Of a DNA stretch of 36,951 bases, positions 1-29,970 are shown in pieces. Source of the stretch: a virus; the IMG/VR virus record IMGVR_UViG_3300042090_002661, positions 1 to 36,951 of that record; one strand, written 5' to 3'. Position 1 is the stretch's first letter. Each line of letters starts with the position of its first letter. Under the pieces are notes generated by a model that ran no database searches, was not told where the DNA came from, and saw only the letters and a list, made by a program, of their open reading frames with translations. A program made the translations under genes and the position numbers.

Positions 1-334
1 GCGAGTCCAACTGCGAGCCCAACTGCGAGTCCAACTGCGAGTCCAACTGCGAGTACAACCGCGAATGCAACTGCGAGTCCAACTGCGAATGCAACTGCGA
101 GCCCAACCGCGAGCCCAACTGCGAGCCCAACTGCGAGTACAACTGCGAGTACAACTGCGAATGCAACTGCGAGTACAACCGCGAATGCAACTGCGAGTCC
201 AACTGCGAGTACAACTGCGAGTACAACTGCGAGTCCAACTGCGAGCCCAACTGCGAGCCCAACTGCGAGCCCAACTGCGAGTACAACTGCGAGTACAACT
301 GCGAATGCAACTGCGAGTCCAACTGCGAGCCCAC
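1..334. repeat. 12-bp tandem repeat array
   Basis: About 28 near-identical 12-bp units of the form GCGAGtcCAACT. Three bases vary between gtc, gta, gcc and atg, and a few units have ACC for ACT. The unit length is a multiple of three, so copy-number change keeps the minus-strand gene in frame. The array continues past the left edge. Confidence 0.95.
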
Positions 335-574
335 GTTACTCGTACTTAATATCTTCTGCAGAACAACAGCGGCAATAGTCGCTTGCATCGGCGATTCTAC
401 TAAGAAAACTAATGGTTTGGACGAAATGTCTTTTAAAAAAACTTCATATAACCAATGCATCTGGCTTTGTACTTCATCGAAAGAAAGTCTTTTGGTAGAT
501 AATCCTTCTAATAGCCAATTATCTAGGTGTTTAGGAATTTTAAGTTGTTGTTCTTTTGTCAATGTGTTAATCAT
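1..574 (-). CDS. X-S-Q-L tetrapeptide-repeat protein (partial, runs off left edge)
   Basis: Reading leftward from the ATG at 572-574 gives about 80 ordinary residues (start MINTLTKEQQLKIPKHLDNW) followed by about 28 units of four residues, mostly X-S-Q-L with X being D, H, Y or G, sometimes X-S-R-L. The gene is still open at position 1. A purine-rich ribosome site (AAAGGA) lies just upstream and a sigma70-type promoter at 607-635. Tandem S-Q-L or D-Q-V tetrapeptides like these are known next to the uncharacterised DUF6745 domain in bacteria and phages; the domain itself would lie beyond the window, so that link is an inference. The DNA array is a 12-bp repeat in which nearly all variation falls in one codon. 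The opposite strand is also open through the array, but lacks a start signal. Function unknown. Confidence 0.75.
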   Translation of the reverse strand, partial: MINTLTKEQQLKIPKHLDNWLLEGLSTKRLSFDEVQSQMHWLYEVFLKDISSKPLVFLVESPMQATIAAVVLQKILSTSNVGSQLDSQLHSQLYSQLYSQLGSQLGSQLGSQLDSQLYSQLYSQLDSQLHSRLYSQLHSQLYSQLYSQLGSQLGSRLGSQLHSQLDSQLHSRLYSQLDSQLDSQLGSQLDS

Positions 575-1404: not shown

Positions 1405-2865
1405 TTATTCCTCTTTTAGTGAATCTATGTGTGAATGAATAGATTCTTTTGAACCAGCAGTGGAAGCTGGCAGTTTTACTTGAAAATCTTTACCCTTGGG
1501 ACTTCTAACGGACCAATGCCAGTTGTTAGAGGCGGGTGTAGGAGGGGCAGTCCTGCGATAGATATGCCCTTTGTGCTGTCCCAGAGCTGGATGGTTGGAA
1601 GGCAACCCATGGATATGTTCAGAAGCCATCATGACATCTGTTCCATCAGCTTGTTTGTTCAAATCTTCACTTTTAATATAGTGGCTGGCAAACATCTTAG
1701 AGAGATTCTTTTCCTTTTGGACATCTTTCCTTAAGGCAAGCGTTCTGCCGATAGCATCCACTTCGCCCTCAGCCAAGTGGGGCATTCTTTTCTTCATGTA
1801 CTGGCGAAAGTGTTCTCTTTTATCCCAGGTCTTATAGGCCTGGTCTGCTCTGTCGTACCAATGGGATTTCTCTTTCTTATGCATCTTTTTTCTATCCAAG
1901 GATTCCGGAGCCAATGCGGCACCATCTACTAATTGTCCAGGGGCTGCCATACCAGAACCAGCAGAAATAGCTTTCTCCATCTTCTCTTCTTTTCCTAAGC
2001 CGCCCATGTACTGTTTAGCGTACGCGGTAGCTTTGCTAGGATTAGGAGAACCAGCCACCATCTTAGAGTTATGGTGTACTTCGAAATGGCCCTTGGGATT
2101 TTTTAAAACCTTTACGTCACCATGGGAAGGATGGGAAAAATGTACCCCGGCCCCAGAATTTTCCCTACTCTCGACCTGTAACCGTGGCCTCCATCCGGAC
2201 TTTTCTAATTCTTCATCTTCGCTCATGGCTAACTGACTTCCTATAAAAGCACCGCCACCACTGCCCACATCTTTTCGTAATTCTTGCTTCTTCTCTAAAA
2301 TTTGTATGTACGTTGGTTCGAACGAGAATAATTGCATTTCACCTTTGAAGAGCTCGCCTACATCATTGGGATCAGCTTTTTCTTCTTTTGGAGGAGCCAT
2401 CTCAGCGATGCAGGATTTATTGGCAGGCATGCAAGTGCAAGTAAGTTTTCTGGCAATGGAACGCGTTATGACAGCGCCCTGCTTTTCGAGCTTTGAACCT
2501 TCGATAGAAAATCCAATGATATTGGGTTCTTCTGGGTGTTCCGCGTCATCTTTAAAAAGAGCCGCTATTTCTTTGCTAGAAGGTTTTTTATCATCAAACA
2601 GCCTACCTTTTATGTACAAAAATGGTATTTGGCATTTTTTCCAAAAATACAAGTGATGCGGATTCTGACAATCAGCGGCTGAAAATATTTTATGGGCTTC
2701 TATGATTTTACCCACGATCTGGGATGGAATTTTCGACTCGTGCTCAAAGTTAATTGGGGCGCCTACAAGAGAAGAGATATCTAAACCCAAAATTGAGACA
2801 ATTTCTCCTGAAGTATCAAGAGCTTCGCTAGAACCAATACCGTGAATATGCGTACATTCGTTCAT
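1405..2865 (-). CDS. putative prohead (capsid maturation) protease, S78-like, with long hydrophilic C-terminus
   Basis: 486 residues. Residues 1-160 follow the order of HK97-type prohead proteases: GEIVSILGLDI, then NFEHES with candidate catalytic His42, a FLYIKGRLFDD strand, the IIGFSIEGS motif with candidate nucleophile Ser120, and LTCTCMPANKSC, which resembles the family's closing E-S-L-V-P-x-P-A-N element. Such enzymes trim scaffold and capsid proteins inside the procapsid. Residues 160-486 are Lys/Glu/His/Gly rich and look like a fused core or scaffold region. The start overlaps the stop of the upstream GIY-YIG gene (ATGA), so it is in a minus-strand operon divergent from scaffold and capsid genes at 5980-8522, an unusual arrangement. 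The family call comes from motifs only; a core protein lacking activity is the alternative. Confidence 0.6.
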   Translation of the reverse strand: MNECTHIHGIGSSEALDTSGEIVSILGLDISSLVGAPINFEHESKIPSQIVGKIIEAHKIFSAADCQNPHHLYFWKKCQIPFLYIKGRLFDDKKPSSKEIAALFKDDAEHPEEPNIIGFSIEGSKLEKQGAVITRSIARKLTCTCMPANKSCIAEMAPPKEEKADPNDVGELFKGEMQLFSFEPTYIQILEKKQELRKDVGSGGGAFIGSQLAMSEDEELEKSGWRPRLQVESRENSGAGVHFSHPSHGDVKVLKNPKGHFEVHHNSKMVAGSPNPSKATAYAKQYMGGLGKEEKMEKAISAGSGMAAPGQLVDGAALAPESLDRKKMHKKEKSHWYDRADQAYKTWDKREHFRQYMKKRMPHLAEGEVDAIGRTLALRKDVQKEKNLSKMFASHYIKSEDLNKQADGTDVMMASEHIHGLPSNHPALGQHKGHIYRRTAPPTPASNNWHWSVRSPKGKDFQVKLPASTAGSKESIHSHIDSLKEE

Positions 2866-3578
2866 TTTTTATTTATTACAAACCTGTTTTTCTTGTATGG
2901 AATATTCGTCCTGATGCATCTGCTAAGAGATCTATGATTTTTTCCACCCAAGGATTTTGCTGCAGCGGTTATGCTTGGAAAAGTTTCCCCAGTATTAAGA
3001 TTGGTTACGCTCTTGGCAATCGGAGTGATCTTCCTGTAATAATAGGCTTTTTCTCCTTTAAATCGTTCTGATAGCTTCTTTCTAGTTTCTTGTGTAATTA
3101 TTCTTCCAATCCAAGGATTGGGTATTTCGCCTTTAGCTAACTTTTCCCAAAATAAAGCTTTTCCCAATCTCGCGGCCTCCTTTACTTCTGGTCTATTTTG
3201 AACTTCTTTTTGTCGAATACTATTTTTAAGGCGAGCTTCTGGGGTAGATTTTAATCTGCTTTGAGTTGCAGACCTTCTTTTTAGAGATTCTTCAGTGTGC
3301 TTATATCCAGTAGCGCCTCCTCTCCCACCAGTAGATAGATTTGCTCTTGGATGATGAGTAGCTATCTCTTCTTTTTCCAAATTTAGAGCCTCTTCTTCTG
3401 TTAAATTTTCTTTAATAAATTCAACAACAAAGCCGTGCTTGTTAACTATATTTTTCCACTTTCTATTTCTACCGCAACTAGTATCATAAGCACGTTTGTA
3501 CTTACCTTTTCCTATATAGAAAAGTTCTCCGGTATCGGCAGTTAAGTGTTTGTATACGTAATAAATTCTTATTTCCAT
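2862..3578 (-). CDS. GIY-YIG homing endonuclease
   Basis: 238 residues. The N-terminus is a GIY-YIG nuclease domain: YYVYKHL, then FYIGKGKYKRAYD containing the Y-I-G triad, followed by an EEEALNLEKEEI helix with a conserved acidic residue. The C-terminal half contains helical DNA-binding modules of the NUMOD kind (TGYKHTEESLKRRSA, KSVTNLNTGETFPSITAAA). GIY-YIG homing enzymes cut allelic DNA lacking the insertion and so spread their own gene. It lies between another endonuclease and the protease-like gene and overlaps the latter by ATGA, so all are probably cotranscribed from 5316-5288. A TATAAA lies 2 nt before the ATG without a clear -35. It is more AT-rich than the virion genes, consistent with mobility. 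Confidence 0.9.
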   Translation of the reverse strand: MEIRIYYVYKHLTADTGELFYIGKGKYKRAYDTSCGRNRKWKNIVNKHGFVVEFIKENLTEEEALNLEKEEIATHHPRANLSTGGRGGATGYKHTEESLKRRSATQSRLKSTPEARLKNSIRQKEVQNRPEVKEAARLGKALFWEKLAKGEIPNPWIGRIITQETRKKLSERFKGEKAYYYRKITPIAKSVTNLNTGETFPSITAAAKSLGGKNHRSLSRCIRTNIPYKKNRFVINKK

Positions 3579-3628: not shown

Positions 3629-5269
3629 TTAGAGATTTATAGCCCAACGTTTTTTACCGCAATTCCAAATTCTATAAAGTTTCAATGACCAGGCCATCTC
3701 CCGTTCCGTTTCCCCAACTGCTCCTCTTTTGAGGAGCATCCGTTTCTGACAGGATTGCTTGGAAATTCTTTTACTTCTGCACACATAGTCATAATCAGGC
3801 CGATGGATTTCCTCCAACGCGAATCCAGTTTTTTCGTAAACATCTCCCGTTGACCAACGATTGTCAGACCAAGATATAAGCTTTAAATAACCCCGATGCT
3901 TGGCATAGAGCAACAGTGCTTTTAGCAGCTTGGATGCTCCTCCAGAAATGGAGTATCCGATCTTAAAAGCCAATCGATTCAAGACGAAAACGCCCTCGTG
4001 GCCCTGCCTATGATGCTTGCTTCCGCTTACTGCTCCTACCAATTCGTTCTCGTAAAATAAGCCAAAACAAACGTCGGTGTTGGTAGAACCTTGAATGTGA
4101 TTCTCATTAAAAAATTTTGCAGCCTCTTTTTTATCTATCATCAAGAGGGTAGTTTTTCTGGCACCTATTCCTATAGTCCTTTTCTTAAAAACAGATAGTA
4201 GAAATCCCTTAACTTGTTCCTTTCTGTGCAGCCATTCATCTTGGAATATAGTTATGAGGCGAAGTCCGTTCTTGTTCGCTTCGATCATTTTCTCATGTGC
4301 CCTTTTATACATGGCTTTTTTTAGAAAATATTCGCTGTGCCATATCAGACCGTTGTACTCTATTCCTAGATTCAATTCAGGGATATAGATATCAATTTCT
4401 ACATGTTTGGTTTTATTGCCCGGCTCATAATAGATTTTCTTCTTGGCGGCGTCGGGGAAAAATTCTCGAACCCATTCTAAAATTTGTAATTCTTCTTTTG
4501 ATACGCCGTGCAACGAGCATTGGGTACACCGACTTTTTTTGGTCACAAAATCGGACATTTTGACCAAATAGACATGCTTATTGGGACATATCAATTCTAT
4601 TTTTTCATGCATGTTGTTGTAGTTCTCGGATAGTAAAGAATAACCTTCCTTCTCTACTGATTTCATTATTTCATTCAGAGTTTTCTTTTTATTGGGAGGG
4701 CCAGAATAACAGATTGAACAGGATTGCGGCTGTTTTCTTTTGGAAGCCCTATTATAGGTGGTATCGTATTTGTGCCCTTTTGAACACAGCACCGCCAAGA
4801 TCTGGCTGGAATTAACGTAATTTTTTGTAATCAGGATCTCGTTCCTGTTTTGAAAAAAAGCATACACTTCTTCATAGGTTAATCGTTGTATTCCCGCGCA
4901 CTTAGAGCATCGATTTTTAGAATTGCGAAAGCCCCCGAAGGTGGTCGCGTAGATATGATTTTTAGGACAGAGCAATTCTATTTTAGATTTATTATTGAGA
5001 TACTCGGTAGATAATAGTTCATATCCCTCCTTCTCTACTGTCTTTTTTACCTCTTCGTAAGTATGGGCTTTATTTCCGGAACATTCTGTACACCTATTTC
5101 CACTATTTTTGAAGCAATAAAATTTGACGTAGTAAGTATGCCCCTTCGGACACAGGGTTTCCAGTGTTGCATGTGCATTGGGATATTCTTTAGAAACAAG
5201 AGTATAGCCGCTTTTTACAAAGACTTCTTTCACTTGTTCTAAAGAATATTTTACATTCGTCATCTTCAT
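3629..5269 (-). CDS. free-standing homing endonuclease with four zinc-ribbon modules, PD-(D/E)XK/EDxHD-type core and GNAT-like C-terminus
   Basis: 546 residues. Residues 8-251 are four tandem modules of about 60 residues, each with C-P-K/N-x-H followed by C-x-x-C (LCPKGH/RCTEC, LCPKNH/RCSKC, LCSKGH/SCSIC, ICPNKH/RCTQC), likely zinc-binding DNA-recognition units. Residues 255-360 are a Vsr-like nuclease core: EIDIYIPELNLGIEYNG, then LRLITIFQDEW. Residues about 375-480 (HIQGSTNTD, NELVGAVSG, SISGGASKLLKALL, SWSDNRWSTGDVYEKTGF) have the strand order and G-G-A-S loop of a GNAT fold, and the end (WNCGKKRWAINL) matches other phage homing endonucleases here. Promoter at 5316-5288. The target gene is probably the neighbouring protease or capsid region; that is inference. 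Confidence 0.85.
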   Translation of the reverse strand: MKMTNVKYSLEQVKEVFVKSGYTLVSKEYPNAHATLETLCPKGHTYYVKFYCFKNSGNRCTECSGNKAHTYEEVKKTVEKEGYELLSTEYLNNKSKIELLCPKNHIYATTFGGFRNSKNRCSKCAGIQRLTYEEVYAFFQNRNEILITKNYVNSSQILAVLCSKGHKYDTTYNRASKRKQPQSCSICYSGPPNKKKTLNEIMKSVEKEGYSLLSENYNNMHEKIELICPNKHVYLVKMSDFVTKKSRCTQCSLHGVSKEELQILEWVREFFPDAAKKKIYYEPGNKTKHVEIDIYIPELNLGIEYNGLIWHSEYFLKKAMYKRAHEKMIEANKNGLRLITIFQDEWLHRKEQVKGFLLSVFKKRTIGIGARKTTLLMIDKKEAAKFFNENHIQGSTNTDVCFGLFYENELVGAVSGSKHHRQGHEGVFVLNRLAFKIGYSISGGASKLLKALLLYAKHRGYLKLISWSDNRWSTGDVYEKTGFALEEIHRPDYDYVCRSKRISKQSCQKRMLLKRGAVGETEREMAWSLKLYRIWNCGKKRWAINL

Positions 5270-5955: not shown

Positions 5956-5979
5956 TCGGTTATTGTGGAGGTTCAAACC

Positions 5980-7071
5980 ATGCAATATACCGAAACACAG
6001 CTTACAAAGCTTATCGAAGACGTGGAAAAAGAATTCACGGCTCACTTGGCGAAAGCCGAGGAAGCGGCGTTAGCTCCTCTAGCGAAGGCAGAAGAAGGCG
6101 AGAAAAAGCCCGAAGAGAAGCCTGAAGAGAAGGAAGCGAAGCCCGAGCATGAGGCTAAACCGGAATCAGAGATGAAGCCGGAAGCCGAGGCAAAGCCCGA
6201 ACACGAAGCGAAGCCCGAGCATGAAGAGAAGCCGGAAGCGGCTCCTGCTCATGACTACGATGATGAAGATCTTGAGCATCTGCATAAGATGTACATGTCC
6301 ATGTCTGAGGGTGAGCGGAAAGTTCATCATGACGCGATCATGAAATGTGCCATGGCTAAAAGTGGTGATGTGGAAAGCGGAGCTGCTGAAGCGCCTCACG
6401 GTGCAGAAGGCAAGCAAGCGCCCGATAGTCACTCGCATCCGGACGTTCAAAAGTCTGAGCTAAATGCTCACGGCGAAAAAGAAAGTCCTCCCCAACCGAA
6501 AGTGAAGGGAAAGAATATGGATAGCGATAAAGCCAACGGCGGAATCGAAGGACAAGAGCCTAAAAATGCCCTTGGCCCCAAATCTCCTGCCAGCGACGCT
6601 AACGGAGCGAAGATTAACAAATCTGAGCACGATAGACGTAATGGCGGAAAGATCGAAGGTCAGATGCCTAATAACTCGCCTGGTGCAAAATCACCAGCTA
6701 GTAAAGAACAAGGATCAGCAAGTATGGAAAAGTCAGAACAAGGCACAGAAACAGAATTGCTTAAATCAGAACTTGGCGCAGTCAATGCTAAGTATGAGGA
6801 TCTCAAGAAAAATTTTGATGCAGTGGCAGCCTTCTTGACCAAGTTGGTCGAGAAGAAAGCGGCTCCGGCGCAAAAGGCCATCACTTCTCTAGAAGTCATC
6901 GCGAAGAGCGAAGGTTTCGACGAAGGTGAACCTCTTAAAAAGGAAGAGATTCATTCTAAACTGCTCGCTAAATCGCAAGATCCAAGCACGAGCAAGTCTG
7001 ATAGGGACGCGATTAACGCTTTCTATCTGGGCAATGAAGATATTAAAAGGATTAGCCACCTGCTCAAGTAG
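5980..7071 (+). CDS. acidic scaffold/core-like protein with Lys-Pro-Glu repeats
   Basis: 363 residues from the ATG at 5980, chosen because GGAGG at 5967-5971 lies 8 nt before it and overlaps an in-frame GTG at 5965. An N-terminal helix is followed by a (K-P-E-x-E-A) repeat region (residues about 40-90), an E-D-L-E-H-L-H-K-M-Y segment, two copies of a unit of about 37 residues containing IEGQ-x-P-x-N and KSPAS, and a predicted coiled coil (LLKSELGAVNAKYEDLKKNF). Such hydrophilic, helical proteins just upstream of the capsid gene are typically scaffolds or head-core proteins removed by the prohead protease. Five K-S-E tripeptides occur, a motif shared with several other virion-region proteins here. 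Identity as scaffold rests on position and composition. Confidence 0.65.
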   Translation: MQYTETQLTKLIEDVEKEFTAHLAKAEEAALAPLAKAEEGEKKPEEKPEEKEAKPEHEAKPESEMKPEAEAKPEHEAKPEHEEKPEAAPAHDYDDEDLEHLHKMYMSMSEGERKVHHDAIMKCAMAKSGDVESGAAEAPHGAEGKQAPDSHSHPDVQKSELNAHGEKESPPQPKVKGKNMDSDKANGGIEGQEPKNALGPKSPASDANGAKINKSEHDRRNGGKIEGQMPNNSPGAKSPASKEQGSASMEKSEQGTETELLKSELGAVNAKYEDLKKNFDAVAAFLTKLVEKKAAPAQKAITSLEVIAKSEGFDEGEPLKKEEIHSKLLAKSQDPSTSKSDRDAINAFYLGNEDIKRISHLLK

Positions 7072-7100: not shown

Positions 7101-8522
7101 ATGATTGAACAACTTCAGTCACTTATGAAAGCGCTTGAAGCAGGCAGTTATAATGCTGCTCCAGGACAATTGGCACAGGGCGCCTCGCTGATGGTAGAAG
7201 ATCTATCGCCGGTGATGCACAATGTGACTTTTGATGATAGCCATATTAAGCTGCAAAAGATGCTTCCTTCGAAAGATGTGAAGAGTCAGCTGCATCAATT
7301 CAACCGACAACTCGATTACGGTATCTTCGGTGGTTCCGCTCAGTTTGAAGGTGGAATCGGTGAAGAAGACACCTCTAATTATGTCCGTGCGGTGGTTCCG
7401 ATGGCGTACTACAGTACGACCCGTCGAGTTACCGTCGCTGCGAACATGATCGGCGCGTTTGACGGCGTTAAAGCCGAAGACCGAGCCGCAGCGGATGCCG
7501 CGATGAAGCTCGCTGGCGATATCGAGTTTGACTCCTTCCGGGGACAAGCCGATTTCTCCAACATGGGCGTATTCGATGGTAACCCCCTCGCTGTCGCGAA
7601 GCTCCCTAACATGATTGGATTGGACCAACAGGTTCGTCAATCTGATGGGCAGTTAAACACTCAAGATTTAATGTTCGCTGAGTTCGGATCTAACCAAACC
7701 GTAGTTCTCTCGGTTGGTGGAACCCTCACGCAGAGCGTCATCGAAGATTCTTCGGTCCGTTCGGCGATGAACATGGGCGCCGCAGATCGTTTGGTCCTTG
7801 ACCCGATCAGCTTAAGTGCTTATAACAAAATCGCGTATGCCAAAGAGCGAATTATGCTCGCCGGCAGTGCGCAAGAAGCGACTGGTGCTCACCTACGAAC
7901 GCAGTGGACGTCCAGTGCGGTGGTTTCTCTCGAAGCCTCTCGCTTCCTCTCTGGAAAGACCGCTCCCGCGCGTCCTCGTTCCGGATCGCCGGCTGCGCCG
8001 TCGATTGCGGTTTCGGACCTCGGTGCTGCTGGTTCGTTGCTCCAGACTGGTTCGTACGCTTACTACGTTACCTCGGCGTCTATTCGCGGTGAATCGTATC
8101 CTTCGCTTTCTGCTTCTCAAGCAGTTACGGCGGGAGATAAGGTTCAGATCGTGATTACGGCGAACTCTGGTGGCGGATCGAGCGCTCAGTACTTCAACGT
8201 TTATCGTTCAGACCTGAACGGAACGGCTTCGGTTGCGAAGTTCATCGGTAAAGTTGCGGTTAACGCAGCCGGAACTGGTGCTACCTTTATCGACCTCGGA
8301 AACCGTCAACCTGGGTCTGTTACTGGATATCTCGTGCAAGCCAATACGATGGGCTTCGCTCAGTTGGCTCCGTACTCGAAGTTGAAACTTGCTGTGTCTG
8401 ATCTCAGTCTTCCCGAAGCGCACTTTCGCTTCCTGAGTCTCGCGGCTTATCAACCTCGAAAAAATGTTTTACTCGAAAACATCACCGGTCAATTAGCCCC
8501 GAATAATCCTTCGATTTACTAA
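7101..8522 (+). CDS. major capsid protein with inserted Ig/FN3-like domain
   Basis: 473 residues. Residues 1-285 and 405-473 read as an HK97-fold capsid protein of the phage type with MVEDLSPVMHNVTFDDSHIK near the start, a long central helix region (AAADAAMKLAGDIEFDSF) and a C-terminal beta part. Residues about 285-405 form an inserted Ig/FN3-like beta-sandwich: SYAYYVTSASIRGESYPS, AQYFNVYRSDLNG, GATFIDLGNRQPG. Inserted domains of this kind usually project from the capsid surface. A good AAGGAG ribosome site precedes the ATG. There is no obvious N-terminal delta domain, consistent with a separate scaffold gene upstream. Downstream is a large structured RNA/terminator. Confidence 0.8.
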   Translation: MIEQLQSLMKALEAGSYNAAPGQLAQGASLMVEDLSPVMHNVTFDDSHIKLQKMLPSKDVKSQLHQFNRQLDYGIFGGSAQFEGGIGEEDTSNYVRAVVPMAYYSTTRRVTVAANMIGAFDGVKAEDRAAADAAMKLAGDIEFDSFRGQADFSNMGVFDGNPLAVAKLPNMIGLDQQVRQSDGQLNTQDLMFAEFGSNQTVVLSVGGTLTQSVIEDSSVRSAMNMGAADRLVLDPISLSAYNKIAYAKERIMLAGSAQEATGAHLRTQWTSSAVVSLEASRFLSGKTAPARPRSGSPAAPSIAVSDLGAAGSLLQTGSYAYYVTSASIRGESYPSLSASQAVTAGDKVQIVITANSGGGSSAQYFNVYRSDLNGTASVAKFIGKVAVNAAGTGATFIDLGNRQPGSVTGYLVQANTMGFAQLAPYSKLKLAVSDLSLPEAHFRFLSLAAYQPRKNVLLENITGQLAPNNPSIY

Positions 8523-8714: not shown

Positions 8715-10256
8715 ATGGCGAATAGATCAAAAATAATTGGCGAAATAGGGGATTTAGTGATAAGCCTTCACAATGAAGGACACAATCCCACTCAAATATC
8801 TCAGAGACTCCCTTTTGCCACCAGTAAAGACACAATCAAATCATTTTTATTTAAAAATGGACTAACTCCAAATGTTAGACAATCAAGCTTAAAAGCTGAT
8901 ATTTATCGAGCATTCCTAAAAGAAGTACAAGGAGATTCAACCAATTGGAGTGTAAAGAGAAAAAAATATAAAATTTCCTTTGACCTTGCTAAAGATCTAA
9001 TGAAAAAAAACAACATCGTAGTAAGAGATAGGGCGGCAGCTTCTCGAGATAAAAATCTTACTGAAGAAGAAATTCAACGACGGCTCGGAGATAAAACAAG
9101 ATTACTGGACATAGAAGGCGACAAATATCACTTAATGTGTGAAGATGGGCACGCTTATTACAAAAAATCAGCAAAGATAGATCGAGGGTGTCCATACGGG
9201 AAGAGCGGCACCCGAACTGACGTGACGGAAATGGCCAGAGAATTATTAGAAATAGGGTATCAACTGGTCGAAAATACCTTTATTAAAAAAAGAAAAGCGC
9301 TAAAGGCAATACACCTAAAATGTGGAAATGTAAGGGAAAATAGATTTCGTAATTTTTTTGTACAAGAATGTTCCACTTGTAACAATAATGGAGTCTCTAA
9401 AGAAGAAATTTCTTTAAAGAACTGGATAGAATCATTAGGATTTCAAACGGAAAAATATAAATTCAAAGAAAGAATTACGAAGCCCAAAGAAATTGACGTT
9501 TACATACCTTCTTTGAAAATAGGTTTCGAATATTGTGGTATTTGGGATCATTGTGAAGAAAGTAGACACCCGAGAGATAGAGGCTATCACAATGGCAAAC
9601 GATTAGAAGCGGCAAAAGAGGGAATTCGATTGCTTACTATCTATAGCAATGAATGGAAAGACAGGAATTATCAAGTAAAAAGCTTCATAAAGAGCGTTTT
9701 AAATAAAAATATCAGAACATTATACGCTAGACAGTGTACCGCAAAAGAAATAGATAAAGACTATGGTGCAGAATTTCTTAAAGTATATCACATACAAGGA
9801 GAGTGCAATTCCATATTTCATCAAGGATTATTTCTGGGTAATGAACTCGTCGGAGTCATGGCATTTTCGCATCATCACACCGACCCTCACAGTTTAAGTG
9901 TAACAGTAGGTAGGATGTGTTTCAAAGCCGATACTACAATTATCGGTGGCGCCAGTAAAATGCTGGAGCATGCTAAGGACAAAATTAAACAATTAGGATA
10001 TTCCTCTATTAAAACGTGGTCAGACAATAGATGGTCAGAGGGAAAAGTATATGAAAAGATGGGATTTTCTTTGGAAACAGAATCTGGACCAGATTTTGAC
10101 TACGTTAGAGGAAAAAATGTAATCGGTAAGCAATCGCTTAGATTTACAGAAGAAGAAAAAACTTTAGGAATAAGTGAGAAAGAATTGAGAAAAAGCCAGG
10201 GTTACATGAGAATATGGGATTGTGGCCAAAAAACATGGATATTAAATTTAATATAA
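8715..10256 (+). CDS. free-standing homing endonuclease, Vsr-like/EDxHD-type core with GNAT-like C-terminus
   Basis: 513 residues. An N-terminal helix-turn-helix-like part (NEGHNPTQISQRLPFATSKD) is followed by a zinc-ribbon-like module (MCEDGH, and later LKCGN with CSTC), then the nuclease core KEIDVYIPSLKIGFEYCG ... IRLLTIYSNEW. The C-terminal third has the same HIQG, NELVGVMAFSHHH, TIIGGASKMLEHA, SDNRWSEGKVYEKMGF series as the proteins at 3629-5269 and 30609-32054, and ends RIWDCGQKTWILNLI. It stands alone between the capsid gene and an unrelated small gene; the capsid frame is intact, so this is not an intron-encoded enzyme. Its own promoter abuts the start codon. AT-rich relative to the capsid gene. 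Function: self-spreading DNA nicking or cutting. Confidence 0.88.
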   Translation: MANRSKIIGEIGDLVISLHNEGHNPTQISQRLPFATSKDTIKSFLFKNGLTPNVRQSSLKADIYRAFLKEVQGDSTNWSVKRKKYKISFDLAKDLMKKNNIVVRDRAAASRDKNLTEEEIQRRLGDKTRLLDIEGDKYHLMCEDGHAYYKKSAKIDRGCPYGKSGTRTDVTEMARELLEIGYQLVENTFIKKRKALKAIHLKCGNVRENRFRNFFVQECSTCNNNGVSKEEISLKNWIESLGFQTEKYKFKERITKPKEIDVYIPSLKIGFEYCGIWDHCEESRHPRDRGYHNGKRLEAAKEGIRLLTIYSNEWKDRNYQVKSFIKSVLNKNIRTLYARQCTAKEIDKDYGAEFLKVYHIQGECNSIFHQGLFLGNELVGVMAFSHHHTDPHSLSVTVGRMCFKADTTIIGGASKMLEHAKDKIKQLGYSSIKTWSDNRWSEGKVYEKMGFSLETESGPDFDYVRGKNVIGKQSLRFTEEEKTLGISEKELRKSQGYMRIWDCGQKTWILNLI

Positions 10257-10328: not shown

Positions 10329-10601
10329 ATGTACATGACTCAGGTTCTAGGATATACAGTCTCCGTTTACGAACTGAACGACGAAGCGGTTGAGTTCATG
10401 GAATGGTTCAAAGCCTCAAACTACGTAGACGACTTCAGCGTGGAAATTACCAAAGAAAACGATACAGACGTGGTAGAAGTGGTCCAGTACAATCCCTTCC
10501 TAAGCGCCGATGCTTTACAAGAGATTTATCTCACGGAAACCGGCAAGAACATGGGCGCCCATGTTTGCAAGGATTGCGAAGCAAAGCAGTTAACCAACTA
10601 A
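10329..10601 (+). CDS. small acidic protein, hypothetical
   Basis: 90 residues beginning MYMTQVLGYTVSVYELNDEA, acidic overall, with a mixed alpha/beta pattern and a C-terminal HVCKDCEAK that could be half of a metal-binding pair. AAGGA lies 6 nt before the ATG at 10329; a second in-frame ATG is at 10335. It has its own promoter and stands between a homing endonuclease and the convergent phosphoesterase gene, whose stop codon overlaps its own. Monocistronic genes with strong host-type promoters in phages are often early host-takeover or anti-defence proteins, but nothing in the sequence shows the role. Confidence 0.7.
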   Translation: MYMTQVLGYTVSVYELNDEAVEFMEWFKASNYVDDFSVEITKENDTDVVEVVQYNPFLSADALQEIYLTETGKNMGAHVCKDCEAKQLTN

Positions 10602-11233
10602 TCTAATTCGATGACAATCGGTTCGTTAGTAGGGCGATATTGTTCTGTGCAGATAGAAGCATTTACGAAAGTAATTCCATCGAAATGATGAACACCATAA
10701 GAGTGATGGATATGCCCAAAAACATGCAATTGTGGTCTCACTTGCATTACTCTTTGAAACAAATCCTCGCATCCTACAGCTTCTCCACGTGGCGTTTTAT
10801 CTAAAATCTTAGCTGGCGGCCCGTGGGTTACCAGAACATCGACCTTATCAGGTATCTGAGCCCATTTTTCAGCCAACTTAGGTCCGCGAGGCACGTTAAA
10901 AGCCCAATCACAGAACTCAGGCTGCCACGGAGAACCATAGATGACTAGCCCTTCATGGATCGCCCATTCGTCCTGCAGATACGTAACTCCTACGTCCTTA
11001 CACATCTGTCTTAACAGAGAAGAGTTGTATTCGCCCAGCCAATCGTGATTTCCGGCGACATAAAAGACTGCCTTGAAATTCTTAGCAATTCTCTCAAATT
11101 CTCTTAATTCTTGGGAGATCTCCGTTATCGTTCCCTGGAACGTGAGGTCCCCGGCATGTACCAAAATATCGCCTTCTGGGACAGAGATTTTACGAAGGCG
11201 GCAGTGCGTGTCGCTGATGCACACAATTTTCAT
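10598..11233 (-). CDS. calcineurin-like metallophosphoesterase
   Basis: 211 residues with the full metallophosphoesterase motif series: SDTH (D8, H10), AGD (D29), GNHD (N62, H63), THGPP (H137) and GHIH (H174, H176). These residues bind two metal ions and hydrolyse phosphoester bonds. The length fits the small single-domain group that includes 2',3'-cyclic nucleotide phosphodiesterase-type and YfcE-type enzymes; the substrate cannot be read from sequence. AAGGAG lies 8-9 nt before the ATG. It is on the opposite strand to its neighbours, with a promoter region shared with the gene at 11422. A role in nucleic acid or cyclic-nucleotide turnover during infection is possible. Confidence 0.88.
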   Translation of the reverse strand: MKIVCISDTHCRLRKISVPEGDILVHAGDLTFQGTITEISQELREFERIAKNFKAVFYVAGNHDWLGEYNSSLLRQMCKDVGVTYLQDEWAIHEGLVIYGSPWQPEFCDWAFNVPRGPKLAEKWAQIPDKVDVLVTHGPPAKILDKTPRGEAVGCEDLFQRVMQVRPQLHVFGHIHHSYGVHHFDGITFVNASICTEQYRPTNEPIVIELD

Positions 11234-11421: not shown

Positions 11422-12993
11422 ATGGCCTTTTCTAACCTAAATATCACTGCCATTCAAGAAGCTATGGCGGATGCGCCGGCGGGAAATTCGCTGGTGAGTG
11501 CCATCCTGAATGGCTGTCCACTTTCCAACCTTACCCTGATCAGACTGCAAGATGTTATGGGTAGCCAGCCGATTGGCAATGACATCAATGCTGCTATCCA
11601 AGGAAAACAAACACTTTCTTTCTTAGATCTTCAAACTATGATTTCTGGATTTGCTAGCGCCCAATTGGCGGCAGATGTTATCTCCAACATTGCGGGCGGA
11701 ATTAGCCCTACGGCATTGAATAGGATTCATACATTGTTCAGTTCAATACCCAATCCTATCCCAGCCTCTCTCACGAATTTGCCAGTCAATGTATCAATGC
11801 CCGCCGGATTCAGCATGGCCGTCGGACCTTTGGGCGGACTCCAACAAATCGCACTCACGTTTCCTGCAGGAAGCGCCTTTCCTGCTTCCGGCCCTGGTAG
11901 CTTTTTTGAAATCCAGAACGTTGGAAATGCCAATAGATACGCTGTTTGGTTCAATGTTCCTGGCGGCGCTACGCCACAAGTTGCCCAAGCCGCCGCTCAG
12001 GCTACCTATACCAGTTTAAGCACGATGACCTCTACGCCAATCTCGGCGACGCTGGATGGACAAACTTTAACTCCCGGTGTTTATAGTGCTGGCGCTCCTC
12101 ATCTCGCAACTTCTGGAGCTGGAACTTTAACTTTTAACGGAGCTGGCGTCTATGTTATCATAGCATCCAGCACTCTCACGACTGGTGCCGGCGGCACGCC
12201 TACTATGACTTTGTCTGGCGGTGCTACTGCAGCAAATATTTATTGGATCGTTGGCTCTTCTGCCACAATCAACAGTGGAACTGCCGGAACTTTCCAAGGT
12301 AACGTCATTGCTCAAGCAAGCGTAACGGACACCTTGGGTGGAACTGTCAATGGCAGCTTGATCGCTTTAACTGGTGCTGTAACTTTAAGTGCAGCTTCCA
12401 TAGTCAACGCGCAGTCGTCTCCGTTGCTAAACGCAGCCGGTCCTTACGGACTTTTGGGAGCTTCTGGAGTAACCAATACTGGTTCTTCTGTTATCAACGG
12501 CGATGTTGGATCTTATCCCACCAACAGTGTAACTGGATTCCCACCTGGAGTAATCAATCCGATTGCTGGTGGAAATACCAATCCCACTCCCGGTGGCTAT
12601 ACTGGAATCGAAGTCAGTATTACCTCTGGCGCTTCTGCCGCAACTGTTGCTGCAGATGTTTATGCGGCCCTTAATGGCAACCTAATCGGTATGAATGAAT
12701 CGGTTAGCGGAGCCGTTGTTGACATTACCATCAATGCCATTCTCTCGCAAGTTAACGGAATCGTCTTCTCGCCTCCGGCTGGGACTTATGCTTCAACACA
12801 AAGCGTAAGCCTATCAGCTGCTCAATGTGGTGTTAGTCTCTATTACACCACAAACGGTTCCACTCCTACTACTAGCAGCACACTGTATACGGGGCCCATC
12901 TCGGTTTCCGCAAGCGAAACAATCAAGGTTTTGGGAGTCAAGAATGGTTTCCAGAATTCAGCCATCGCGAGTGCAGCTTACGTAATTTCGTAA
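11422..12993 (+). CDS. multidomain virion surface protein with inserted permuted DUF3494 module and CHB_HEX_C-type C-terminus
   Basis: 523 residues. Residues 1-110 contain about four degenerate helical repeats (LNITAIQEAM, LTLIRLQDVM, LSFLDLQTMI, ISPTALNRIH). Residues 120-185 and 385-440 form one recurrent phage module (FFEIQNVGNANRYAVWFNVP then YTGIEVSITSGASAATVA) split by an insertion. The insertion, 185-380, is a DUF3494 ice-binding-type beta-solenoid: LDGQTLTPGVYSAG, TLTFNGAGVY, ANIYWIVGSSATI, FQGNVIAQAS, GSLIALTGAVTLS, then LLGASGVTNTGSSVINGDVG and TGFPPG. The last two elements normally open the domain, so the order is circularly permuted. Residues 445-523 match the CHB_HEX_C_1 domain of chitobiases (VSLYYTTNGSTPTTSS). 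No signal peptide. Likely a surface-exposed virion protein binding carbohydrate or cells. Good ribosome site (AAGGAG). Confidence 0.75.
   Translation: MAFSNLNITAIQEAMADAPAGNSLVSAILNGCPLSNLTLIRLQDVMGSQPIGNDINAAIQGKQTLSFLDLQTMISGFASAQLAADVISNIAGGISPTALNRIHTLFSSIPNPIPASLTNLPVNVSMPAGFSMAVGPLGGLQQIALTFPAGSAFPASGPGSFFEIQNVGNANRYAVWFNVPGGATPQVAQAAAQATYTSLSTMTSTPISATLDGQTLTPGVYSAGAPHLATSGAGTLTFNGAGVYVIIASSTLTTGAGGTPTMTLSGGATAANIYWIVGSSATINSGTAGTFQGNVIAQASVTDTLGGTVNGSLIALTGAVTLSAASIVNAQSSPLLNAAGPYGLLGASGVTNTGSSVINGDVGSYPTNSVTGFPPGVINPIAGGNTNPTPGGYTGIEVSITSGASAATVAADVYAALNGNLIGMNESVSGAVVDITINAILSQVNGIVFSPPAGTYASTQSVSLSAAQCGVSLYYTTNGSTPTTSSTLYTGPISVSASETIKVLGVKNGFQNSAIASAAYVIS
11974..12561 (+). repeat. 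DUF3494-module copy 1 (homologous to 27754-28365)
   Basis: DNA encoding the permuted DUF3494 module. It shares long near-identical stretches with the copy inside the sheath gene, including an exact 32-nt match (12124-12155 with 27925-27956). This points to duplication or gene conversion within the phage genome. Confidence 0.8.
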
Positions 12994-15123: not shown

Positions 15124-16128
15124 ATGAGAAAGTATACTATAGAAGAATTAAAATTAAAATCTAGAGAATATGAGTACAGGGCGGATTTTCTAAAATACGC
15201 AGGCGGCTATTATATGAGCGCCCAAAGACAGGGCATTCTGGATGAAGTCTGCGCTCATATGCCAAAGAATTTATTAATCGGCAGAAAACCTCATAATGCC
15301 AAATGGAATTTTGAATCATTAACGATAGAATGCGCTAAATATGCGAACAGATATCAATTGAGAAAAAATAATCCTTCTGCTTTTAATGCCGCAAAGAGAT
15401 TAAAACTTTTGAACACTTTTTATCCCAAGAAAGACGAATTTAGAAATACACCATATTCAGACGAAGAAATTGCAAAAGAAATAGGCACATACAAAAATAA
15501 AAATGAATTGAAAACAAAAAATCCCTATCTATATCGAATGTTATTGAAACATCCCAATAAATCTCTACTTCTTTCCACACTTCCAGCGGATACTAGAAAG
15601 GGCAAAATTCCCCATAATAAAAAGTGGACGGAGATAACAGTGCCCGCAGAAGCTGCTAAGTACTCCACTAGGATAAGTTTTTTAACACAAGCCCCGGGTG
15701 CCTATGACGCCGCCCTAGATTTAAAAATAATGGACACCTCCTGTGCCCATATGAAAAGGGCGATCAACACATCGAGCCACGAAGAAACACTGTTCAATTT
15801 GATCAAAAAGCAATTCCCTAAGGCTCAAAAATTGAGGGTTAGGAAAAAGAATTTGGTTCCTAATAAGCCGTATATCAATGGTTTTGATTTAGATACTTAC
15901 ATTCCTGAATTGCGCAAGGGTATCGAATTCGATGGTCGTTATTGGCATAGTCCGGAAGGTTTAAAACGATCTAGGGAACATTGGCCTGAAGAAGATATTC
16001 AAAATTATCATCAAATTAAAGATGAATATTTTAAATCTAAAGGTATCGAAATTTTACATATTAGAGAAGAAGATTGGCTCTTAGATCCTGAAAAATGCAT
16101 TTCTCAATGTTTGAAATTTTTAAAGTAA
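15124..16128 (+). CDS. free-standing homing endonuclease with CAHM repeat modules
   Basis: 334 residues. Residues 1-215 are about four modules of 45-55 residues with the pattern of a basic helix, N-P-x-A-Y/F-x-A-A, then a C-A-H-M-like end (DEVCAHMPKN and DTSCAHMKRA; the middle copies have lost the Cys). Similar modules precede the nuclease at 30609-32054, so they are probably DNA-binding units. Residues about 220-334 are a Vsr-like nuclease core: GFDLDTYIPELRKGIEFDG, RYWHS, and GIEILHIREEDWL. It lacks the GNAT-like C-terminal domain seen in three related proteins here. It has its own promoter with no leader, and is AT-rich. It separates the connector-like gene from the 2H phosphoesterase gene. 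Confidence 0.85.
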   Translation: MRKYTIEELKLKSREYEYRADFLKYAGGYYMSAQRQGILDEVCAHMPKNLLIGRKPHNAKWNFESLTIECAKYANRYQLRKNNPSAFNAAKRLKLLNTFYPKKDEFRNTPYSDEEIAKEIGTYKNKNELKTKNPYLYRMLLKHPNKSLLLSTLPADTRKGKIPHNKKWTEITVPAEAAKYSTRISFLTQAPGAYDAALDLKIMDTSCAHMKRAINTSSHEETLFNLIKKQFPKAQKLRVRKKNLVPNKPYINGFDLDTYIPELRKGIEFDGRYWHSPEGLKRSREHWPEEDIQNYHQIKDEYFKSKGIEILHIREEDWLLDPEKCISQCLKFLK

Positions 16129-19166: not shown

Positions 19167-19175
19167 GAGTAATTG

Positions 19176-19976
19176 ATGAAGCCGCGTCTATCTAAATCTG
19201 AAATAGATAAACGATTATACGATATCCATAAAGGAGTTGTATTTTCAGATCATTCTACTTTTAAAAGCGTTAATGTTAAAAGTAGACTTGTAGATGTAGT
19301 TCATGGAGAATTCTGGTGTAAATTAAACGATGTATTCAGCAAAAAGGTTGGGCACCCGCAAAGACAATTAGAAAAAACGAAGCAAACGTGGGCAAAAAAA
19401 TACGGCGTCGAAAATATATCTCAAAGTCCTTCTATCAAAAGAAAAAAAATAAGCACTTGTATTAAAAATTTTGGATATGAATTTTCAACTCAATCACCAG
19501 AAGTACAATTAAAAATAAAAGCAAATAATTATCAAAAGTATGGTTTTGAAAGTCCCAACCAAAGCCCGGTGGTAAAAGAGAAAAAGAAGAAAGTTTATTT
19601 AGAAAAATATGGAGTTGCGGCCCCTTCTCAAAACAAAGAAATAGCCTTAAAACAAGCTAAATCTGTCAATTATAGTTTCATAAAATATCACTGGAAAACC
19701 AATGAAGAGCTGGTTTGTCAAGGTTCTTATGAAGTTAAAACAGTCAATTATCTTAATGAAAATCAAATAGAATTTGAATGGCAGCCGCGAGTTTTCAAGA
19801 TGCCAAACGGCAAGACTTATCGTCCAGATCTCTATTTGGTCGATGAAAACAAGTGGATAGAGATAAAAGGTTACATGAGAAAAGACGCCCAAGAAAAATG
19901 GGATTGGTTTAAGACCCAGTTCCCAGGCGCCGAACTTTGGAATAAAGAAAAATTAAAGCATATGGGGATATTATAA
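19176..19976 (+). CDS. homing endonuclease, PD-(D/E)XK type with repeated KYG modules
   Basis: 266 residues from the ATG at 19176 (a TTG lies one codon upstream). Residues about 60-160 contain three or four repeats of the pattern K-x-T/W-x-K-K-Y-G-V-x-N-x-S-Q-S-P-x-I-K (KKYGVENISQSPSIKRKK, QKYGFESPNQSPVVKEKK, EKYGVAAPSQNKEIALKQ), DNA-binding units frequent in phage homing endonucleases. The C-terminal part has a PD-(D/E)XK core: TYRPDLYLVDENKWIEIKGY (D and E-x-K). Unlike other endonucleases here it has no promoter of its own in front and is embedded in the operon, overlapping the next gene by TAATG. Confidence 0.85.
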   Translation: MKPRLSKSEIDKRLYDIHKGVVFSDHSTFKSVNVKSRLVDVVHGEFWCKLNDVFSKKVGHPQRQLEKTKQTWAKKYGVENISQSPSIKRKKISTCIKNFGYEFSTQSPEVQLKIKANNYQKYGFESPNQSPVVKEKKKKVYLEKYGVAAPSQNKEIALKQAKSVNYSFIKYHWKTNEELVCQGSYEVKTVNYLNENQIEFEWQPRVFKMPNGKTYRPDLYLVDENKWIEIKGYMRKDAQEKWDWFKTQFPGAELWNKEKLKHMGIL

Positions 19977-23679: not shown

Positions 23680-24498
23680 TCATTTGACATATTCAAAACA
23701 AAACCCTTTAATACACTTGTATTCTTTATTTCCCTTTCGTTTTATCTTAAGATAATTTCGCAGTGAATTTAAATTTATATTTAAACTTTCTGATGCTTCT
23801 TTTATAGAAGGATAAATAGTACCAGTTTCTAAACATTTTATCGATTTCTGACAACGCTTTTTCCCCTTTCCTGCTGCAGACATTTTCTTTTTAGTCTCTT
23901 CGGATGCTTTCCGGCCTGTCATTGCTATTCTTTGATTTTCTTTTTGTTCATCGCTTCTACTCTTACCTTTCTGCCAATTGCTCATTTTAATTTTTGTTTC
24001 TTGAGTATGTTTTTTGCCAAACCATGCTGATTTTTCTCCCCTCTGAGAGAGCGAGCATTTTATTTTAACAGATTCAGGTTGTTTTGTTCCCAACCTTATT
24101 TGTCTCATTTTCTCCCCGAATCCCGGTGGTTTTTTCTTGCCCTTTCCTGCTGCGGACATTTTCTTTTTAGTCTCTTCGGATATTTTTTGGTTTAAACCTC
24201 CTTCGTGTATATTGTATCCATTATTAATTGAGTCAAAAATTCGTATGATAAATTTTTCTCGTTCGTTCAATTCTTTCTCGTTATTAGCTCTGCACACTGC
24301 TGAAATTTCAAAATTTTCAGGGCCATATTTGTGCATAGCTCTAGTTATGGCCATATCATGTTCCTTGGATGGTCTCGTGGCCTTATATTTATGACCTCTC
24401 CATCTTTCTGATATAGTTCTTATAGTCTGTCCAACATAGAGCTTATCGTTAATTTTACAGACAATCTTATATACGTATCCATATGGCTTACTTTTCAT
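23680..24498 (-). CDS. GIY-YIG homing endonuclease with NUMOD3 repeats
   Basis: 272 residues from the ATG at 24498. This start is preferred to the one at 24516 because the predicted transcription start (about 24510) lies downstream of 24516. The domain begins GYVYKIVCKINDKLYVGQT (the GIY and YIG-equivalent YVG segments), then RWRGHK and a conserved NEREKFIIRIFDS. The C-terminal half contains repeated NUMOD3-type units (SEETKKKMSAAGKGKK twice, HTQETKIKMSNWQKGK) and a NUMOD1-like end (IYPSIKEASESLNINLNSLR). It lies between the tail completion gene and the gene at 24539, on the opposite strand, with a perfect-consensus promoter. Free-standing homing endonuclease. Confidence 0.92.
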   Translation of the reverse strand: MKSKPYGYVYKIVCKINDKLYVGQTIRTISERWRGHKYKATRPSKEHDMAITRAMHKYGPENFEISAVCRANNEKELNEREKFIIRIFDSINNGYNIHEGGLNQKISEETKKKMSAAGKGKKKPPGFGEKMRQIRLGTKQPESVKIKCSLSQRGEKSAWFGKKHTQETKIKMSNWQKGKSRSDEQKENQRIAMTGRKASEETKKKMSAAGKGKKRCQKSIKCLETGTIYPSIKEASESLNINLNSLRNYLKIKRKGNKEYKCIKGFCFEYVK

Positions 24499-24516
24499 AT
24501 TTTTCTCACTGCTCAT

Positions 24517-27201: not shown

Positions 27202-29970
27202 ATGAGTTTACGTTTAATTACACCTTTTGTAAATACTAATATCCCCGGTGCGTATCCCAATGTTGTCGTTCAGAGTCAACCAGTAGGACTCGCTTCTTCT
27301 GGTATCGTTGTTATCATGGGCGAAGCTGACGGCGGACCTGGATATAACCAAGTTGCGCTTTCTAAACAAGTTTTTACGCCCGATCAACTGGCTCTAGTTC
27401 AGCAAGAATATATCGGTGGACAAATCGTTGATTCGTTCACGGCATTGGCTGCTCCTTCTGATGATCCAAATATCACTGGCTCGGCAAATTTAATTTATAT
27501 CGCCAAAACGAATAACGGAACATCTGCTTCATCTGCACTTCCTGGCAGCTACGGAACACTTTCGGATAGTAACTATGGAGTTGATGGAAATTTATATAAC
27601 TATCAAATTTTATCGGTAGACGCCGGCGTTCCTCCCATGCTTTCTGGAAATACGGTGCCGTCATTTGGCTCTGCTCTAGACGGTGCTAGCTTTTCTCTTC
27701 GCTTGAATGGTGGCGCGGTTGATGTAATCACTTTAAGTAGCGGTTCGTCTTCTCCCGTCAGCCCAGCCGAAGCCGCTGCTGGTCAGTCTGCTGCCTCTGC
27801 AGCGTACACAAGCCTGGGAGCGAGAACCCCCTCTTCAGCAATTTCACCTGTCCTCGATGGCCAGACGTTAACTCCTGGTAATTACAATACTGGAGCGGCC
27901 AGCTTAGCTGCTTCTGGTCCTGGGACTTTAACTTTTAACGGAGCTGGCGTCTATGTAATTAAGACTTCTAGCACCCTAGTCACTGGCGCTGGCGGCATTG
28001 CCACCATCGCGCTGACTGGCGGAGCAACCGCTGCAAACATCTACTGGGTGGTTGGCTCTGCGGCCACGATCAACTCCGGCTTCTCTGGAACATTCCAAGG
28101 TAACGTCATCGCTGAAACTAGCATCACGGTCAGCTTGGGCGGAACCGTCAACGGTAGCTTGATCGCATTGAATGGCGCTGTAACCCTGAGTGCTGCCACG
28201 AATGTTAGTGCTCAATCAGCACCTCTACTGAATTATGCAGGAAGTTTTGCTCTCTTGGGTGCTTCTGGAGTAACCAACACCGGTGCTTCCGTAGCCACTG
28301 GAAACGTTGGTTCTAGTCCAACCAATAGTATTGCTGGATTCCCACCCGGCACCATCGTCGGCGCAGCCCACTCCAACATTGCTGAATTAGTCACAGAGCT
28401 GAATCTATTGCTTCCTTCTGGAATCGTGGCATCTGCTGGTTCTTCGATGAACGTGGTTCTTACGATGACCGCCGAAGGTGATCCGTATGCACAGGGGTCT
28501 AGTCAATCATTCGAACTCATTGATTCTACCCTTGGAGATTTGGCCGCTTTAGGACTTTCCGCTGGATTAGTACTTCCTTCGCAATTGCCTGAAGTAGAGC
28601 TCAACATCGTCAGACCTGACATCAACGTCAATCAGTCAATCGACGTGAGCGCGGCTGTCGCCTTAGAAGTTGGATATCAAGGAACGTCTGGTACTATTTC
28701 GGTAAGCGCAACTACTATTAGCACGACTGTCGTTGGTGGAATCGGTGCGAATCTTTCGATTCCCATCAGCCAGTACACGACTATTGCGGAACTAGCGGCT
28801 TTTATCGCCGCACAGCCCGGTTATTCTGCGGTATGCCCTGCGAATGCTCAGCAATTGCCTCCCAGCGTCTTAGATCGAGTTTCTGATGTAGGCATCGCCT
28901 CTTCCGGTGCGGGATTACTTCCTGGACAAATTTGGGATGCAGCGTACCTGTTTGCGCAAGCGGCGGCAACGTCTGCTCTCGTATTTACGGTTGGCGCAGA
29001 CGGGAAAGTAGGATTACCTGCCCCCATGAGTGCCTCGTTATACTTAGCGGGTGGAACGAGGGGCGCTACCCTGGCAGTAGACATCGTCAACATCTTGAAT
29101 CAGATTGGCGGAATCAACTGCAACATGATCGTTCCTCTCTTCTCCGAAGATGCAAGTTTGGATATCGCAGCTGGATTAACAGATCCAGCCAGCACCTACA
29201 CTATCGAAGCGATCAACGCTCTCGTTAAAAGTCACTGTATCCAATACAGCACGCCTGCTCTTAAGAAAAATCGCATCTGCTTACTTTCTTGGCTTGGTAC
29301 TTATGCTTCTGCTGCGGCTGAAGCTCAGAGTCTCGGAAACTATCGATGCTCTCTCACTATGCAACAGGTCAGCCAAGTTAATTCTCAGGGCGTCATACAA
29401 CTATTTCAACCTTGGTATGCTTCTTCGTTGGCTGCTGGTATGCAAGCTGGTGGATTCTATAAATCGATCTGCAACAAAGCCGCTAACCTCATTAGTTTCA
29501 CAGATCCTAGCGGGTTTGATTCGGGAAGCCCTGGCGACGTCGAAGAGGCGTTATCAGCAGGACTCCTGTTCTTATCGCAAGATACAGGAAGAGCCGGGTA
29601 CTGGGTTTCGGACCAAACTACGTACGGATTCGATACCAACTTCGTATACAACAGTATCCAGGCTGTCTATGACTCGGATTTGATTGCTCTTGATCTGGCT
29701 CAAAGTTTCTTTACCCAGTTCGTTGGGCAGTCCTTGGCGGATGTTTCTGCCTCTGCAGCACTTTCTTTCTTGACCCAGAAGATGGATGGTTACTTGAAGC
29801 TGAAACTCATTGGTTCCAGTAGCGATGCCCCGCTCGGATTCAAGAATGCGAGCATCACGATTGACGCCCCAGAGATGGATGTGAAGGTCGAGATTAAGCT
29901 TGCCACCGCAATATACTTCATTCCGATCAACATTAACATTTCCCAGATCATGGGAACTGCGGGCACCTAA
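27202..29970 (+). CDS. tail sheath protein with inserted, circularly permuted DUF3494 module
   Basis: 922 residues, far longer than a typical sheath. The N-terminus (MSLRLITPFVNTNIPGAYPN) and C-terminal part (KNRICLLSWLGTY, FKSICNKAANL-type insertion domain, KLKLIGSSSDAPLGFKNASI, final TAIYFIPINININ-like strand) fit contractile sheath proteins, and the tail tube gene follows 16 nt downstream. Residues 182-388 interrupt a sheath strand-loop-helix (SFSLRLNGGAVDVITL, then SNIAELVTELNLLLP) with a DUF3494 beta-solenoid: LDGQTLTPGNYNTG, TLTFNGAGVY, ANIYWVVGSAATI, FQGNVIAETS, GSLIALNGAVTLS, then LLGASGVTNTGASV and AGFPPGT. The last two normally come first in DUF3494. The module should sit on the outer surface of the sheath. 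Strong ribosome site (AAAGGAG). Confidence 0.88.
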   Translation: MSLRLITPFVNTNIPGAYPNVVVQSQPVGLASSGIVVIMGEADGGPGYNQVALSKQVFTPDQLALVQQEYIGGQIVDSFTALAAPSDDPNITGSANLIYIAKTNNGTSASSALPGSYGTLSDSNYGVDGNLYNYQILSVDAGVPPMLSGNTVPSFGSALDGASFSLRLNGGAVDVITLSSGSSSPVSPAEAAAGQSAASAAYTSLGARTPSSAISPVLDGQTLTPGNYNTGAASLAASGPGTLTFNGAGVYVIKTSSTLVTGAGGIATIALTGGATAANIYWVVGSAATINSGFSGTFQGNVIAETSITVSLGGTVNGSLIALNGAVTLSAATNVSAQSAPLLNYAGSFALLGASGVTNTGASVATGNVGSSPTNSIAGFPPGTIVGAAHSNIAELVTELNLLLPSGIVASAGSSMNVVLTMTAEGDPYAQGSSQSFELIDSTLGDLAALGLSAGLVLPSQLPEVELNIVRPDINVNQSIDVSAAVALEVGYQGTSGTISVSATTISTTVVGGIGANLSIPISQYTTIAELAAFIAAQPGYSAVCPANAQQLPPSVLDRVSDVGIASSGAGLLPGQIWDAAYLFAQAAATSALVFTVGADGKVGLPAPMSASLYLAGGTRGATLAVDIVNILNQIGGINCNMIVPLFSEDASLDIAAGLTDPASTYTIEAINALVKSHCIQYSTPALKKNRICLLSWLGTYASAAAEAQSLGNYRCSLTMQQVSQVNSQGVIQLFQPWYASSLAAGMQAGGFYKSICNKAANLISFTDPSGFDSGSPGDVEEALSAGLLFLSQDTGRAGYWVSDQTTYGFDTNFVYNSIQAVYDSDLIALDLAQSFFTQFVGQSLADVSASAALSFLTQKMDGYLKLKLIGSSSDAPLGFKNASITIDAPEMDVKVEIKLATAIYFIPININISQIMGTAGT
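27754..28365 (+). repeat. DUF3494-module copy 2 (homologous to 11974-12561)
   Basis: In-frame insertion in the sheath gene with near-identical stretches to the copy in the 11422 gene, including the 32-nt exact match at 27925-27956. Both copies have the same permuted order. Confidence 0.8.

Follow-up and report, generated by a model that had tools for sequence, protein, structure and literature searches.

The solenoid coils of DUF3494 proteins are ordered b1-b6-b5-b4-b3-b2, an arrangement described as 'unique for DUF3494' (PMC7966756). Most extra domains of contractile tail sheaths are Ig-like; they are located away from the tube and are believed to contribute to adhesion or stability (PMC9230969), and ice-binding-like genes in polar virus contigs have been read as host cryoprotection genes (PMC11515562). 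Here we describe a DUF3494 domain with another chain order, set inside two proteins of one uncultured phage. The window, i.e. the whole stretch of 36,951 nucleotides analysed, is viral and comprises positions 1-36,951 of IMG/VR record IMGVR_UViG_3300042090_002661. Its structural region is of the myovirus type according to profile matches of head and sheath genes, and the features concerned are as follows.

7101-8522: major head protein (phrog_752 match)
10598-11233, minus strand: calcineurin-type phosphoesterase gene adjoining the gene of protein A, named by eye from its sequence
11422-12993, plus strand: protein A, 523 aa, carrying copy A of the module
11971-12573 (approximate), plus strand: insert in protein A, residues 184-384, between NVPGGA and NTNPTPGGYTGIEV
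11983-12561, plus strand: permuted Ice_binding module, copy A (helix, coils corresponding to b2-b6, then the canonical N-terminal segment)
12124-12155, plus strand: 32-nt tract ACTTTAACTTTTAACGGAGCTGGCGTCTATGT in copy A, a candidate short conversion tract
12424-12552, plus strand: segment that is N-terminal in canonical DUF3494 and placed last in protein A, residues 335-377
27202-29970, plus strand: contractile tail sheath, 922 aa, carrying copy B (phrog_279, E=2e-24; fold similar to that of the phi812 sheath)
27742-28368 (approximate), plus strand: insert in the sheath, residues 181-389, between the strand VITLSS and the helix HSNIAELVTELN
27925-27956, plus strand: partner of the 32-nt tract in the sheath copy, an exact match to 12124-12155
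29987-30493: next gene after the sheath, probably the tail tube, judged by position
2862-3578, 3629-5269 and 23680-24516, minus strand, with 8715-10256, 15124-16128, 19173-19976, 30609-32054 and 33455-34135: homing endonuclease-like genes, recognised by eye

The homing endonuclease-like genes (GIY-YIG, HNH and others) look free-standing and are scattered among the structural genes. The left end of the window (1-400) contains a 12-nt tandem repeat with at least 21 copies, and 18-nt repeats at 6133-6257 in the gene at 5965-7071 encode EAKPEHE-type repeats. The gene at 34462-36951, which runs off the window, is large, repetitive and fibre-like; its internal repeats (families D4, D5 and D9) measure about 146 and 48 nt.

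The product of 27202-29970 is a sheath by both sequence and fold in its N- and C-terminal core, since besides the phrog_279 match its AF2 model (mean 77, pTM 0.53) matched the phi812 sheath with a Z of 23.9. Protein A comprises a helical N-terminal domain (residues 1-100 approximately), a recurrent phage domain interrupted by the module, and a C-terminal CHB_HEX_C_1/Fn3-like domain at residues 451-516. Its position among structural genes and its domains suggest that protein A is a virion protein. A short, module-less A-like gene in contig L239 likewise adjoins a phosphoesterase gene, which supports the assignment of the two genes to the same locus. Profile comparison detected no homology between the recipient domains of protein A and the sheath (probability 0.3%, with shallow profiles), so that the preliminary description of this DNA was right, at the sequence level, to call the second carrier an unrelated protein.

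The Ice_binding (DUF3494) profile PF11999 matched both copies (E=8e-30 for copy A and 2e-30 for the sheath copy; 104.5 and 106.6 bits against a curated cut-off of 28.7). In the AF2 models, both modules adopt the β-solenoid with a parallel helix that characterizes DUF3494, with Z of 16-18 over about 150 residues. For the module of protein A, most pLDDT values of the main segment exceeded 90 and those of the last segment were about 70-83; roughly 150 of its residues aligned with the solved members 7bwy (Z 18.0) and 6eio (Z 17.1). Residues 180-341 or so of the sheath model matched ice-binding proteins with Z of about 17. The closest solved relatives, 6eio, 7bwx and 6bg8, are approximately 32-38% identical in the aligned region. 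Some stretches of protein A itself were poorly predicted, and the pTM values (0.44 for the A model, 0.53 for the sheath model) make the placement of domains unreliable. Alignment of the module with 6eio paired residues 23-73 of the latter with module residues 142-192, and residues 106-225 with module residues 18-139. Thus, the b1 segment, which precedes the helix and b2-b6 in the canonical chain, comes last in both window copies. Judged by sequence and modelled fold, both copies are circularly permuted members of DUF3494 (Ice_binding, PF11999). The preliminary description had recognised the permutation and given no family name; the family is named here.

Models of the two DUF3494 segments were further searched over all loci recovered. 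In cellular copies, the N-terminal segment came first wherever it was recognised, some copies showed the main segment alone, and none of the cellular loci recovered showed a permuted copy. Among phage copies, the permutation was confined to sheaths of two divergent groups, protein A (window and L003) and a single very large protein (L014/L103), the remainder being canonical. Two apparent further cases, the cellular L155 and the first copy of phage L128, proved to be tandem canonical copies whose neighbouring segments had been mis-paired; the latter is mislabelled in the main module tree and was excluded from the single-origin AU test described below.

Relatives in which the sites are empty fix the borders of both inserts. 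In the A relatives L084, L086, L021, L015, L229 and L230, the loop is uninterrupted; in the first four, NVSGGS is followed directly by NTDPAPAGFTGIEV. The module had been placed at 11974-12561, which is correct to within a few codons of the borders obtained here, and its reported flanks YAVWFNVPGGAT and YTGIEVSITSG are both present in protein A. The empty site of an example sheath reads VTLSAVPADHADLATLIIELN, and in the window VITLSS is followed by the module and then by HSNIAELVTELN. Both flanks are present in 50 distinct group-1 sheaths, of which 12 contain the module and 38 lack it, and the latter retain the remainder of the protein; the nearest module-less sheath is that of L023 (75-78% identity). 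The sheaths of L008-L013 form a second group, about 30% identical, in which the module has another position, ahead of the recipient domain's first strand. The close relatives are all metagenomic contigs; assembly errors are unlikely for these arrangements, since most of them are common to several contigs from different samples. Other insertions were also observed in these phages: in an 861-aa sheath (L074:4008-6593), a different insertion, some 150 aa long, lies close to the same region, and another portable domain, about 65 aa in length (YTFTVTAANATVGATY...GTGDSTIAYSAFS), occupies varying positions in sheaths and large proteins (residues 116-181 in L057, 198-263 in L046 and L067, and also in L124, L126, L127 and L140).

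Protein A had no relatives by single-sequence search and five by alignment-based search. Its arrangement in L003 is the same as in the window. In L084, L086, L021 and L015, a canonical DUF3494 copy occupies another loop, further along the recurrent domain; in L229 and L230, the recurrent domain is intact and a canonical copy is found at the C-terminus; and in L231-L233, the helical domain is joined directly to a canonical copy. The four copies compared from L229-L233 had bacterial proteins as their best matches (42-57% identity) and on this evidence belong to the cellular lineage. The A-like gene of L239 has no DUF3494, and records of this phage group contain from 0 to 5 copies. These sequence arrangements indicate at least three routes by which the A gene family acquired DUF3494, a recurrence that is difficult to account for without selection.

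The DNA of the two window copies falls short of the near-identity first ascribed to it. Protein A and the sheath share 135 of 184 aligned residues (73%, E=4e-73; A 196-378, sheath 202-385) and 358 of 498 aligned nucleotides (72%), and pairwise comparison of the modules gave 69% nucleotide and 72% amino acid identity, a dS of 1.57 and a dN/dS of 0.13. Among modules generally, dN/dS is about 0.04-0.29, indicating purifying selection, with dS mostly near saturation. The window copies are no more alike to each other than to homologues elsewhere, an outcome that the preliminary description had set as refuting its reading and that here tells against recent exchange: copy A is 83% identical in amino acid sequence to the copy of L003 and 82% to that of L005, to which copy B is also 82% identical. 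In the tree, the phage modules form one clade separate from the cellular copies (best cellular match 51%), and A with L003 (support 99.3/100) lies inside the group-1 sheath cluster (99.1/93). AU tests rejected A and B of the window as sisters (p=0.034), and likewise an origin of copy A in the canonical copy that other A proteins carry (p=0.019). Monophyly of the group-1 sheath copies without A was not rejected (p=0.50), so that transfer from sheath to protein A is favoured but falls short of proof. A single origin of all permuted copies was rejected (p=0.0125, or 0.046 without L103), so either there were several permutation events or copies have recombined and thereby obscured the tree. The identities and the AU test rule out recent duplication or wholesale conversion. 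Movement within one genome, as had been proposed, can on these comparisons be at most an older event, because L003 shares the A arrangement and copy A is nearer to the copies of other phages (82-83%) than to that of its own sheath (72%).

The 32-nt match between the copies is exact, as reported. Across 1,540 pairs of phage modules, the longest identical run had a median of 12, and the A/B run ranked eighth. Permutation of contig labels showed an excess of long runs among same-contig pairs (p=0.0005). When codon pairs were shuffled within classes of equal amino acid pairs, a procedure that keeps codon use and divergence, the A/B tract exceeded expectation (p=0.0047). Tracts with p<0.01 occurred in 5 of 31 same-contig pairs and in 5 of 500 sampled other pairs (Fisher p=1e-4), although modules are shared between pairs and few genomes are represented, so that the pairs are not fully independent. 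Identity is therefore clustered beyond the shuffled expectation and enriched within genomes, and short-tract conversion between A and B is credible from these statistics. Long identical tracts of 51, 45 and 38 nt were also seen between divergent modules of different contigs, namely L012/L017 (same sample), L003/L006 and the window sheath copy/L126; some of these contig pairs may come from one genome.

The reading that we favour, and regard as probable, is that both copies represent a permuted DUF3494 β-solenoid used as a portable, surface-displayed binding domain of the virion, with copy A derived from a sheath-type copy. The canonical chain runs from coil b1 through the long helix to b2-b6, with b6 packed beside b1, and the permuted chain would run helix-b2-b3-b4-b5-b6-b1, forming a single continuous solenoid in which the b1 segment follows b6. 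Given the canonical coil order, the permutation makes spatial neighbours into sequence neighbours, and it should make the discontinuous solenoid continuous, with its termini adjacent to each other. These new ends, at points formerly joined, would lie side by side and suit insertion into a loop without disturbing the host domain. Contractile tails contain a large number of sheath copies per tail. The sheath would have gained the module in a loop that lies beyond its conserved core, and each tail would then carry very many copies. Copy A would have arisen later, when a permuted copy of the sheath type was transferred into protein A, relatives of which have canonical DUF3494 at different sites, and paralogous copies within one genome may exchange short tracts.

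Two rival explanations concern the relation between the copies. Independent gain of the permuted module by protein A and the sheath from outside sources would be compatible with the rejection of a single permutation and with the unrejected monophyly of group-1 sheath copies without A; the position of the A and L003 copies within or beside the group-1 sheath cluster, together with the lack of permuted copies among the cellular loci recovered, makes it unlikely. Ongoing gene conversion, suggested earlier as what keeps the copies alike, is credible for the 32-nt tract (shuffle p=0.005) and in keeping with the enrichment of such tracts in same-genome pairs. As the main cause of the overall likeness it is refuted and very improbable, since A and B are no closer to each other than to modules of other phages, and mean nucleotide identity is 0.663 for same-genome pairs versus 0.652 for others. 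The notion of a portable cassette holds, because several kinds of phage protein carry the domain, relatives have empty sites and A clusters with the sheath copies.

As to function, a surface-binding decoration is the best-supported and most likely role, with ice as one possible ligand. If ice binding has been retained, a virion with its many sheath copies might attach to or tolerate ice in cold habitats. The nearest solved relatives are ice-binding proteins, and the polar virus contigs mentioned above contain ice-binding-like genes (PMC11515562). However, the ice-binding site of the family has no consensus motif (PMC7966756), so that sequence cannot decide, and the family is described as including binders of substrates other than ice (PMC12337378); we consider ice binding doubtful, if conceivable. 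A mainly structural insert, without a ligand and serving as a stiffener or spacer in the sheath and protein A, would agree with the proposal that extra sheath domains are stabilisers (PMC9230969). This is rather less plausible still, because 38 of the 50 distinct related sheaths do without the module and keep the rest of the protein, and because several unrelated proteins carry the domain and the A family recruited it in three ways. Surface binding thus remains our preferred role. An extended version, in which an exchangeable DUF3494 set in two chain orders spans the virion, evolves by permutation, re-insertion and short-tract conversion, and provides an ice- or matrix-binding tail coat, is speculative.

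Searches for a circularly permuted DUF3494, for DUF3494 in a tail sheath and for relevant papers on phage DUF3494 found none in the open-access literature, and tblastn found no module in 50,697 records of named phages even at E 0.1, with a low-complexity filter that may hide weak matches. The nearest sheath in a cultured phage, that of Myxococcus phage Mx1 (41% identity), has no DUF3494 module and an uninterrupted recipient domain. Several sites with empty counterparts provide a good natural case of a domain becoming insertable, and the recurrent uptake of such domains by related phages suggests a reusable surface-binding decoration. The module shares with type 1 ice-binding proteins (6eio, 7bwx and 6bg8) the family, the solenoid-with-helix fold and conserved core segments. 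In contrast to those stand-alone secreted or cell-surface proteins, it is circularly permuted and lies in loops of phage proteins; if our reading is correct, it represents a natural permutation that abolishes the signature chain discontinuity of DUF3494. Like the mostly Ig-like extra domains of sheaths (PMC9230969), it lies between conserved core parts and is absent from relatives, whereas it is a β-solenoid of the ice-binding family whose lineage also occurs on other phage proteins. Promiscuous phage Ig-like domains, as quoted in PMC9230969, are also mobile on diverse structural proteins and thought to be weak surface binders; compared with that account, the module differs in its fold, its circular permutation and its location inside another domain, and promiscuous virion domains would thus extend beyond Ig-like folds. 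PF11999 also occurs in the phage contigs whose ice-binding-like genes were read as auxiliary metabolic genes (PMC11515562). In the present group the domain is built into the tail sheath, which speaks against a role in host cryoprotection, and, if our reading is correct, ice-binding-like genes in viral contigs may encode parts of the particle rather than serve host cryoprotection.
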